Positions 26,026 to 27,916 of a DNA stretch of 29,624 nt are shown one piece after another. The notes beneath the pieces are model-generated. The model searched no databases. It was not told the origin of the DNA and saw only the letters and a program-made list of their open reading frames with translations. This stretch comes from a virus, in IMG/VR virus record IMGVR_UViG_3300030102_001899, positions 1-29,624 of that record; one strand, given 5' to 3'. Numbering within the stretch: position 1 is the stretch's first letter; every line of letters starts with the position of its first letter. Both the position numbers and the translations under genes were made by a program.

Positions 26026-26310
26026 TTATACCTTGCCGCCCTTGGCCATACCCTTCTTCTTCATCATGCCGCCACCGGCCATCTTCTGAACCTTGCCACC
26101 TTTAGCCATGCCTTTTTTCTTCATCATGCCGCCGTTGGCCATCTTCTGGACTTTACCGCCCTTGGCGTAGCCCTTCTTCTTCATGGCTCCACCTTTAGCC
26201 ATTTTCTGGACTTTACCGCCCTTGGCCATGCCTTTTTTCTTTACGGGTGGGGCTATGTTTCCAACAAGATTAGATGCATACTCATCCATTGTCATAAATT
26301 CTTTTGCCAT
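26026..26310 (-). CDS. Lysine/glycine-rich 20-residue repeat protein
   Basis: A 94-residue protein. Residues 1-20 are ordinary (MAKEFMTMDEYASNLVGNIA). From 23 on it consists of a 20-residue unit, KKKG(M/Y)AKGGKVQKMA-x-GG-x-M, repeated three and a half times with exact spacing. About 25 residues are lysine, and only three acidic residues occur, all near the start. The DNA repeat is 60 bases. Such composition suggests binding to DNA or to other virion proteins. Related KGG-containing short proteins are frequent in marine phages, without assigned function. The GK pairs resemble the Gly-Lys context of HlyC-family acylation sites, making it a candidate substrate of the acyltransferase at 4168-4641. 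That is speculation. Confidence 0.7.
   Translation of the reverse strand: MAKEFMTMDEYASNLVGNIAPPVKKKGMAKGGKVQKMAKGGAMKKKGYAKGGKVQKMANGGMMKKKGMAKGGKVQKMAGGGMMKKKGMAKGGKV
26041..26250. repeat. 60-base tandem repeat encoding the lysine-rich units
   Basis: Units lie at 26041-26100, 26101-26160, 26161-26220 and a partial one from 26221. They are similar but not identical, with several silent differences, so they are an old in-gene expansion rather than a recent one. There are no spacers between units, which rules out a CRISPR array. Confidence 0.9.
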
Positions 26311-26319
26311 TACTTGCTC

Positions 26320-26685
26320 CTATGCAATTTTGGTGCGTTTTCTTCTATTAGCCATCACAGCGCCGCATCCTCGCGCCACAACAGTTCCGGGTATGTTTTT
26401 ACCCCTAAATGGTCTTTTGGGCTTAGTTACAGCCCCACCATTTTTTAAATTCGTTACTTTCGCAGCCTTTGTATTAGCGACCGTAGTCTTTCCTTTAGCG
26501 CCTGCTTTTTTCTTTTTACGTGCTGTCGTAGCGCGTTCACTCTTGGATAAACTATTAGCTTTAGATCTAGGCAGGCAACGATCAGGGTTTTTCTTATCTT
26601 TTGAAGTACCACATGGACCTTTGATAGAACCATCAGTTCCAATCCTTACCCAGTCTTGTTTCAGCCATTGCTTTAACTGTCCCAT
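26320..26685 (-). CDS. Basic cysteine-containing phage protein (DUF5872-like)
   Basis: A 121-residue protein. It opens with LKQWLKQDWVRIGTDGSIKG, then PCGTSKDKKNPDRCLPRSKA and NSLSKSERATTARKKKKAG. This pattern (W-x-K/Q-x-x-W-V start, CG-x-S, a C-x-P-x-SKA motif and an ERA-x-x-ARKKK run) is one I associate with the DUF5872 type found in phages and some large DNA viruses; the name is from memory. The C-terminus, PFRGKNIPGTVVARGCGAVM followed by ANRRK, is a separate motif common in marine phages. Very basic. Coupled to the small genes before it by TAATG. Function unknown; DNA or capsid binding is plausible. Confidence 0.6.
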   Translation of the reverse strand: MGQLKQWLKQDWVRIGTDGSIKGPCGTSKDKKNPDRCLPRSKANSLSKSERATTARKKKKAGAKGKTTVANTKAAKVTNLKNGGAVTKPKRPFRGKNIPGTVVARGCGAVMANRRKRTKIA

Positions 26686-26825
26686 TATGCACGGCCTCCA
26701 TACTTCCTAGACTTTACCTTTTTTCCTTTATGTTTTCCACCAGTTCTTTTTATCTTACCTTGAGCCTTGCAAGAAGCTATCTGTGTGAAACCTTTAGGAT
26801 TTTTACAGTTTTTAGCTTTGGCCAT
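26685..26825 (-). CDS. Very small basic protein (46 aa)
   Basis: A 46-residue frame, MAKAKNCKNPKGFTQIASCK followed by a Lys/Gly/Arg-rich tail ending KYGGRA. Two cysteines lie 12 residues apart, at 7 and 19. It starts at TGATG shared with the upstream stop and ends at TAATG shared with the next start. It fills the whole gap between its neighbours without leaving space, which supports it being real. A structure stabilised by a metal or disulfide is possible. Function unknown. Confidence 0.6.
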   Translation of the reverse strand: MAKAKNCKNPKGFTQIASCKAQGKIKRTGGKHKGKKVKSRKYGGRA

Positions 26826-27115
26826 CAAGTTTTCCTATGCTGCTTGCGTATGGCCTCTTTACCCGCCTTTGCTATTCTAGCCTGTTCCGGCTTTTTCGCT
26901 ACTTTAGCCCTTTGCTCTAAAACAGTAAGTATCTGTATTTTTCTAGCAAAAGGTTTGTTTATTTTTTTAACTTTAGCAACAGTGGCTCTTGCATCAGCCG
27001 GTGTAGCAAATTTTATAGAAACAGTATCTTTAGGGTTTTCATCTGTATACAAACGTCTACCCGATCCCGGCGGCTTTTTTCCTGTCCCCTTTTTAGGATC
27101 TTTTCCGTTTCCCAT
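26825..27115 (-). CDS. Conserved small basic phage protein
   Basis: A 96-residue protein: MGNGKDPKKGTGKKPPGSGR, RLYTDENPKDTVSIKFATPA, then DARATVAKVKKINKPFARKI and QILTVLEQRAKV. The central DTVSIKFATPADARATVAKV block is one I recognise from several marine phages. The beta strand followed by long basic helices suggests a small folded domain with a basic tail. The ATG has only a weak ribosome binding site and lies inside the end of the 43-residue gene upstream, so expression may depend on translational coupling. Function unknown. Confidence 0.65.
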   Translation of the reverse strand: MGNGKDPKKGTGKKPPGSGRRLYTDENPKDTVSIKFATPADARATVAKVKKINKPFARKIQILTVLEQRAKVAKKPEQARIAKAGKEAIRKQHRKT

Positions 27116-27224
27116 TTTTTACCAACTTAGATAGTGTCCGTGCTTGTCCTGCATGAGCTTTAGACGCTTTGCGTAGCTTCTTAGCCACCTTTTTGACCTG
27201 AGTCTTAGCTCTTCCTGTTAACAT
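27093..27224 (-). CDS. Very small basic protein (43 aa)
   Basis: A 43-residue frame, MLTGRAKTQVKKVAKKLRKA then SKAHAGQARTLSKLVKNGKR. Almost half of the residues are Lys or Arg, spaced to form an amphipathic helix. It starts directly after the upstream TAA with no base between and overlaps the next gene by 23 bases. There are no acidic residues. It resembles small histone- or protamine-like DNA-binding peptides in composition only. A real gene is likely because it fills the gap between conserved genes in the same operon. Confidence 0.55.
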   Translation of the reverse strand: MLTGRAKTQVKKVAKKLRKASKAHAGQARTLSKLVKNGKRKRS

Positions 27225-27473
27225 TTATCGTCCTTTTCTTTTTCCGCCTTTTGACTTTTTGGCGTAGTTGGGGTCTTTGCAATATTTTGATGCGGCCAAG
27301 TTTGCATACGCTGACGGGTATGTGTCAAATGTGCGTTTGGCCCAAGCCTTACCCTCTGGACAGATCTTACCACCACTTTTCACCTTCCCCCCTTTTTTCA
27401 TACGAACAGCACTATTTGAAGCGCGTTTTGGTATAGGACAAGCTGCTGCCCCTATTCTTACTGCACTGGTCAT
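27225..27473 (-). CDS. Small basic protein with conserved Cys/Tyr core
   Basis: An 82-residue protein. The N-terminal part contains RMKKGGKVKSGGKICPEGKA, and the core is WAKRTFDTYPSAYANLAASK followed by YCKDPNYAKKSKGGKRKGR. The run ICPEGKAWAKRTFDTYPSAYAN and the cysteine after it form a motif that I recognise in phage and other viral proteins, with cysteines at the two ends and a YPSAYAN helix between. It may form a small zinc- or disulfide-stabilised fold. Basic ends suggest nucleic-acid or virion contacts. It starts two bases before the stop of the membrane protein upstream and is immediately followed by the 43-residue gene. Confidence 0.6.
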   Translation of the reverse strand: MTSAVRIGAAACPIPKRASNSAVRMKKGGKVKSGGKICPEGKAWAKRTFDTYPSAYANLAASKYCKDPNYAKKSKGGKRKGR

Positions 27474-27632
27474 CTAAAACACCTTCTGCACGACGGCTGC
27501 TGCAACAATTAATCCGGCTATGCCCCAAAGTCTTTGATCCAACCTATCTAGCTGTTTTTGTATCTGGGCATACCGAGTATTGCACTCCTCTTCGTGCTTT
27601 TCCAAAAGTTTTAAAACATCATCGGCTTTCAT
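27474..27632 (-). CDS. Small coiled-coil membrane protein (52 aa)
   Basis: A 52-residue frame. Residues 1-34 are a charged helix (LKLLEKHEEECNTRYAQIQK, QLDRLDQRL). The end is a single membrane segment, WGIAGLIVAAAVVQKVF, reaching the C-terminus. This coiled coil plus tail anchor is found in phage proteins of the XhlA/holin-like type. It starts at TAATG. It is the only evident membrane protein among the small genes and could be a lysis accessory. I see no endolysin in the window, so the lysis role is unproven. Confidence 0.6.
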   Translation of the reverse strand: MKADDVLKLLEKHEEECNTRYAQIQKQLDRLDQRLWGIAGLIVAAAVVQKVF

Positions 27633-27916
27633 TAGCACTTCCATCTTCTACGAGCTTGTCTAAGTCTGCTATTAGGGTTTTTAGCTGCTTTAGGAAACTT
27701 TTTCATCTGACCTGCGGATCTGGCACAAAATGATTTACGTCTTTTTGCATCTTTACTGCCGGGTTTAACTTTTCCTGTAACAGCCGTTTTTAACTTAGAA
27801 CCGGGATTTGCACGTCTGTAAGCTGCCACCCCGGCTTTAGTCATTCCCGCCCCTTTTTCTGTGGGGCGGAAATTTTTTTTGTTTCTTTTTGGCATCTTGG
27901 CTTTACGAGGAGCCAT
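27632..27916 (-). CDS. Basic phage protein with FCAR...RWKC motif (DUF6321-like)
   Basis: A 94-residue protein: MAPRKAKMPKRNKKNFRPTE, KGAGMTKAGVAAYRRANPGS, then KRRKSFCARSAGQMKKFPKA and a C-terminus ending in RRRWKC. The GAGMTKAGVAAYRR-x-NPGS-x-LKTAVT block and the SFCAR-x-x-G-x-MKK run with final W-x-C are ones I recognise in phage and giant-virus proteins (the DUF6321 name is from memory). The two cysteines may be a metal site. More than a third of residues are Lys or Arg. Position three genes after the capsid suggests a capsid-internal or DNA-binding protein. Function unknown. Confidence 0.65.
   Translation of the reverse strand: MAPRKAKMPKRNKKNFRPTEKGAGMTKAGVAAYRRANPGSKLKTAVTGKVKPGSKDAKRRKSFCARSAGQMKKFPKAAKNPNSRLRQARRRWKC

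Follow-up and report, generated by a model that had tools for sequence, protein, structure and literature searches.

The closest described counterparts of the genes considered here are the internal proteins IPI, IPII and IPIII of bacteriophage T4, which are small, mostly basic head proteins bearing a capsid-targeting sequence that gp21 cleaves. Ten residues suffice for import into the T4 head, positions 4 and 7 serving targeting and positions 8 and 10 processing, and the prohead protease gp21 cleaves after L/I-X-E (PMC9026906); in the T4 record the N-terminus of both IPII and IPIII reads MKTYQEFIAE|A. A second relevant group is T4-GC119 (phrog_727) of T4-like cyanophages, which is without an assigned function and lies between terS and terL, a position known in P-HM1, S-SM1 and S-CRM01; in these phages DUF6321 (PF19846), itself a family without functional assignment, forms the end of the protein. 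The present analysis concerns a cassette of eight small genes (26026-27916, minus strand) in a viral DNA stretch of 29,624 nucleotides, here called the window (IMG/VR record IMGVR_UViG_3300030102_001899, positions 1 to 29,624). Its products are probably small basic proteins that accompany the DNA inside the head of the phage; six are the stand-alone form of modules, or beads, that T4-like cyanophages carry on a string.

The eight open reading frames (ORFs), of 43-121 residues, overlap or are tightly packed on one strand, with capsid genes on one side and, on the other, one 225-residue ORF followed by an SU10-type adaptor. They are real genes, since numerous conserved relatives of their families are present in other phages, and the description of eight small coupled genes after the capsid region, given in an earlier note made from the sequence alone, is borne out. 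As also stated there, all but the membrane protein are extremely basic, with net charges of +16 to +30 and isoelectric points (pI) of 10.4-12.0, values that stand out against a pI of 9.0 or less for every other window gene checked. The accompanying remark that acidic residues are few is too strong for the product of 26825-27115, which, with 8% acidic residues, is less extreme than the other basic members. In the order of decreasing coordinates the families are labelled A to H. Families A, C and E have at least 600 matches each in a scan of IMG/VR viral contigs, so that these families, of which at least three are that abundant, make up a widespread fraction of the still unexplained genes of marine viruses. 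No function is given by the databases, as had been anticipated for most of the families: those matched in PHROGs are all listed as of unknown function, and no paper naming DUF6321 turned up in the literature searched.

A tblastn search with gene E hit a protein of 618 residues, Synechococcus phage Bellamy gp123, which is encoded between both terminase genes and can be read as a chain of recognisable modules. Hidden Markov models (HMMs) of the window families scored 121 bits for family E (E-value 2e-38, residues 7-93), 79 bits for family A and 21 bits for family G, the best shuffled score being 15, against this protein; that of family C, compared directly with the cyanophage beads, stayed inside the shuffled noise and was not significant. 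Profile-profile comparison, carried out after 80 further cyanophage-type loci had been added, matched families C (98.5%, E-value 4e-15) and G (99.8%, E-value 4e-29) with cyanophage beads, control pairs reaching 0.2% and 23%. Of families A, C, E and G, two or more are combined in 87 ORFs across all loci, three or more in 67 and all four in 14, the recurrent order being E/Z-G-C-X-Y-A with A usually last, at the C-terminus; families F (CDNPKGFSQRAHC) and D (KLRKGSKTHAKQA) are found within bead-string proteins too. Because of these HMM, profile-profile and fusion results, which leave out H and B, the basic families other than H, six in all (A, C, D, E, F and G), are identified by sequence as beads of the T4-GC119-type string. 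The cassette carries as separate genes the kit of beads that other phages string together. The six families are homologous to T4-GC119/phrog_727, but the latter is one long protein rather than separate genes, its order differs, and beads X, Y, Z and V, which it has in addition, are absent from the window. A DUF192 (COG1430) domain is inserted in the bead string of Bellamy gp123 (locus L190, 4938-6794) at residues 247-349.

Taken singly, family A (27632-27916; 94 residues, net +30) belongs to DUF6321, with a Pfam score of 52.7 bits against a cut-off of 28.5; it is present in 224 phage records and sits C-terminal within cyanophage proteins of the T4-GC119 type. Family C (27225-27473; 82 residues, net +18), with a 'YPSAYAN' motif and three cysteines, matches the 'WPSAYASGALVKC' bead and phrog_27331 (E-value 3e-23), and family D (27093-27224; 43 residues, net +16), characterized by 'KKLRKASKAHAGQA', is fused in some cyanophage proteins and joined to family C in several small genes. 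Family E (26825-27115; 96 residues, net +19; 'LYTDENPKDT') is the N-terminal bead of Bellamy gp123. Family F (26685-26825; 46 residues, net +16; ATG at 26825) contains 'CKNPKGFTQIASC' and matches the 'CDNPKGFSQRAHC' bead, with 54-75 bits against the cyanophage copies. Family G (26320-26685; 121 residues, net +28), with 'LKQWLKQDWVRIG..CGTSK..RCLPRSKA', matches the cyanophage 'LHKWFKGSKSKDG' bead and phrog_23735 (E-value 4e-23); the window protein has no Pfam match at E<=1 and is not a member of DUF5872 (PF19197), for which its HTVC027P relative gives a sub-threshold match (21 versus 27.5 bits). Family H (26026-26310; 94 residues, net +22) is a KGG-repeat gene made of 20-residue 'MKKKGMAKGGKVQKMA' repeats; Tandem Repeats Finder reports a period of 60 nucleotides and 3.4 copies at 26036-26241, in agreement with the one repeat gene noted before. 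No bead homologue of family H was found, and none of its 54 relatives in the fetched loci is fused to a bead. Family B (27474-27644; 56 residues), an acidic coiled-coil with a hydrophobic C-terminus, is probably a small membrane protein and is not a bead, none of its 49 relatives in the fetched loci being fused to beads; its end, previously placed at 27632, had to be moved to 27644, so that it overlaps the neighbouring gene. Two or more cysteines occur in four basic proteins (genes at 27632, 27225, 26685 and 26320) rather than in the three counted earlier.

For capsid-targeting starts, the pattern M[KRQ].[FY]..[FYW][LIVMF].E was scanned. In T4-like loci it begins 15 of 112 bead ORFs versus 11 of 2390 other ORFs, while among the 11,570 ORFs of other, non-T4-like loci, and in shuffles, it was not encountered. 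The bead N-termini with the pattern amount to ten distinct ones, identical sequences recurring; examples are a DUF6321 bead preceded by MKTFKQYITE|A, a Y bead preceded by MKTFKQFMSE|S and a string protein with MKNFKEFIEE|A. Part, and only part, of the T4-like cyanophage bead proteins share in this way the N-terminal pattern of the T4 internal proteins at positions 4, 7, 8 and 10, an indication that cyanophages possess natural capsid-targeting sequences.

The junctions between beads carry a second T4-like signal. The motif [LIVM]xE is present in 91% of 264 distinct junction segments from 88 string proteins, compared with 41%, and at most 46%, when each of the same segments is shuffled. The offset is specific, a hydrophobic residue being found at position -2 from the Glu 301 times and at other offsets 90-195 times, and the motif occurs at junctions of all ten bead types, the next residue being mostly Ala, Gly or Lys. 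The capsid protein of S-SZBM1 has LTE|A at residue 52. The cyanophage homologues have, as a sequence motif at which cleavage is putative, the L/I-X-E prohead-protease site of the T4 internal proteins. They recall also, by description, the T4 core proteins gp22 and gp67, head proteins that gp21 cuts into fragments at several L/I-X-E positions (PMC9026906); gp22 and gp67 are, however, disposable scaffold, whereas the beads are conserved modules.

Virion proteomes of cyanophages provide the third line of evidence. Out of 219 numbered genes of S-CREM2, 52 proteins are listed as detected in the virion (PMC10665884). The phage has just two bead ORFs, gp137 (A, Y) and gp160 (G, X, C), represented by 4 and 7 unique peptides, respectively, and just two ORFs with the targeting start, gp136 and the cytidylyltransferase gp154; four out of four are in the list (p about 0.003, calculated post hoc). 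In S-SCSM1, for which 45 proteins were detected by mass spectrometry (PMC9602691), the seven-module gp029 (Z-G-C-X-V-Y-A) has the product name virion protein, and gp139 of S-SZBM1 (bead X) is in the 30-protein virion table of that phage. S-SZBM1_190, considered by position as a virion-detected GC119 counterpart, was dropped, being without any bead, and GenBank notes of the type 'similar to S-SM1 protein' were not used as a virion flag, for which they are unreliable. The detections in S-CREM2 and S-SCSM1 speak against late intracellular helpers, i.e. packaging accessory or nucleoid-binding proteins that stay outside the virion; the location of the T4-GC119 gene between terS and terL would suit such a role, and the virion data do not extend to stand-alone forms, but this explanation is considered improbable. 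As a separate observation, S-CREM2 gp154 (OR473000.1, 124608-125468) has the T4-type capsid-targeting start MKNFSSFLTE|A; this may account for the repeated occurrence of such NMNAT-like enzymes in virion proteomes of cyanophages.

It is, thus, strongly indicated that in T4-like cyanophages at least some bead proteins enter the head and mature by the T4 pathway and are present in virions. For the window phage we infer the same head-interior location, with electrostatic binding of the packaged DNA; because six of the cassette families match beads of a string that bears head-packing signals, these abundant nameless genes most likely encode head-interior proteins. The internal basic proteins that the earlier note had listed among its options have gained strong support, albeit indirect, as it comes from virion-detected cyanophage homologues, partly with targeting starts and protease-like sites. 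According to the mechanism that can be envisaged, T4-type starts would direct the cyanophage bead strings into the prohead, where gp21 would cut each string into beads; these would stay with the packaged DNA, binding or neutralizing it, and may pass into the host along with it, as T4 IPI does. The pre-cut beads of the window phage would behave likewise. The link to a virion-detected bead string with head-import and protease-like signals gives families of 'unknown function' a testable role in the head interior.

Several observations weigh against this assignment. The junction and targeting counts include related sequences and are, therefore, not counts of independent events, and the motifs were picked after seeing examples. 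S-SZBM1 gp191 and gp192, which have a targeting start and a bead, are not among its 30 virion proteins, S-SCSM1 gp030 is without a virion label, and S-CREM2 gp137, basic at its bead end only, is as a whole acidic, with a net charge of -20. All virion detections concern cyanophage homologues, none coming from the phage of the window or from phages close to it, and a few homologues lie outside the head module, as in Vibrio 1.090.B, HTVC010P and Microcystis LMM01. No DNA-binding fold was found, and comparison of the family E model with the PDB returned generic, uninformative three-helix bundles. Finally, no cassette gene of the window matches the capsid-targeting start, and head entry would, therefore, need another route. 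The cassette proteins also have almost no [LIVM]xE site; the absence of the start and the scarcity of sites are what would be expected of pre-cut beads, and equally of an acid-poor protein.

Compared with the T4 internal proteins, to which they have no sequence homology (the bead HMMs score 1.5 bits at best), the window beads are far more basic, +16 to +30 as opposed to +2 to +9, several have conserved cysteines, and beads occur on strings or as arrays of genes. The internal proteins of T4 that carry this type of targeting start are injected, IPI being an inhibitor of a restriction enzyme (PMC9026906), and the beads might be packaged for delivery, entering the host with the DNA to act on it by anti-restriction or take-over, as IPI and Alt do, and not to pack the DNA. 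The E-like bead that Foldseek retrieved in uncultured viruses, on one cytidyltransferase-like protein and on one with a SET domain, and the targeting start of the virion cytidylyltransferase gp154 go in the same direction. On the other side, the beads are uniformly and strongly basic, match no enzyme, are many per phage and are found in phages of very different hosts, and delivery as the main function is regarded as unlikely, though less so than the other alternatives.

With respect to DNA-associated proteins of the head interior, the genomic context of the separate bead genes is consistent. Among the non-T4 loci fetched, 102 of 106 have a capsid homologue, and 123 of 125 an adaptor homologue, no more than 4 kb from a bead gene, the strand being the same in 231 of 231; where two or more bead genes are present they are all on one strand (294/294 loci). 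The HTVC027P array is very similar to the window cassette, and DUF6321 is directly beside the capsid gene in P-SCSP1c and HTVC031P. The location of stand-alone genes between capsid and adaptor genes would also fit capsid cement or head-completion proteins, which bind the shell or the neck. Such a role is considered improbable, given the T4-type internal-targeting starts and junction sites of the cyanophage forms; moreover, a search of the text of the P-SCSP1u cryo-EM paper gave no such shell protein, and no structural homologue was found by sequence. The link of the families to the bead string suggests a kit common to unrelated head types. It is a tentative proposal, and one on which the doubts somewhat prevail, that marine phages share a head-interior bead kit, deployed in T4-like cyanophages as an imported polyprotein cut at every junction and in smaller, unrelated phages as a pre-cut gene cassette. 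T7-like cyanophages and pelagiphages also have, with DUF6321 beside the capsid gene, a small basic family of sequence LYANIHAKRKRIAAGSGEKMRKxGAKGAPT (loci L179, 6189-6365, and L185, 5819-5968).

AlphaFold models family E with a three-helix C-terminal part (mean predicted local distance difference test score 79.5; block means of 91-96 over residues 41-90). That of family A, calculated after a false row (L298) and one fragment had been taken out of the input, is helical and of modest confidence (71). By fold, too, the searches retrieve phage members of these families: the matches of family A in the viral fold library are phage DUF6321 proteins only, and those of family E include the two proteins of uncultured viruses named above. 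Of the searches by sequence for relatives of solved structure, one gave only chance matches to designed proteins and another none. A link to giant viruses is unsupported by the fold searches made and is not claimed.

The other function suggested in the earlier note, that of lysine-rich substrates of an acyltransferase, was tied there to the cassette by a shared operon. The HlyC-type lysine acyltransferase of the window (4168-4641, minus strand; PF02794, 51.9 bits versus a cut-off of 25) is instead about 22 kb away and is not part of the cassette. The co-occurrence that the note had proposed as a check also fails. HlyC is rare: viral contigs contain 14 relatives, and the 50,697 phage records contain none. 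Of the 50 viral contigs that carry basic families, many of which are fragments, 48 lack it; two of the eight such contigs longer than 40 kb have it, and in none of 17 isolate genomes with basic families does a match exceed the cut-off. None of the eight cassette families is found in any of the 14 HlyC loci, with flanks of up to 10 kb, nor is HlyC in any of 239 bead loci. Both partners are in the window, and DUF6321 is present in five of seven HlyC-bearing contigs longer than 35 kb, but this co-presence reflects one lineage. On linkage and co-occurrence, the cassette proteins were rejected as acyltransferase substrates, an explanation that is largely refuted and retains only a very slight probability. 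Those HlyC loci that reach far enough have, mostly, a homologue of a fast-changing 1247-residue protein (4638-8381 in the window) upstream, and a 238-residue gene and a helicase downstream. Because HlyC directly follows it, this large protein would be a better-placed candidate than the beads, if HlyC has a phage substrate at all. The same protein contains a long Gly/Ala-rich hydrophobic stretch.

A KGGxV-like motif is seen at 26026-26310, 26320-26685, 27225-27473, 3459-4175, 8381-10678 and 11508-13436 of the window, thus in both small basic and large virion-module proteins; its recurrence (7 versus 3.4 expected by simple shuffle) was judged not convincing. On the capsid side of the cassette, beyond two further genes, lies the C-terminal part of the major head protein (29289-29624, minus strand; phrog_371; L004 7290-8204), the ORF of which extends past the window on the 31,883-base IMG/VR contig. 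On the opposite side the SU10-type head-tail adaptor (24676-25344, minus strand; PF24175, 63 bits) is the head-module neighbour, and the ORF between it and the cassette (25344-26021) is His/Cys-rich and matches phrog_3704, labelled ferredoxin, with a relative in 77 of the 239 bead loci.

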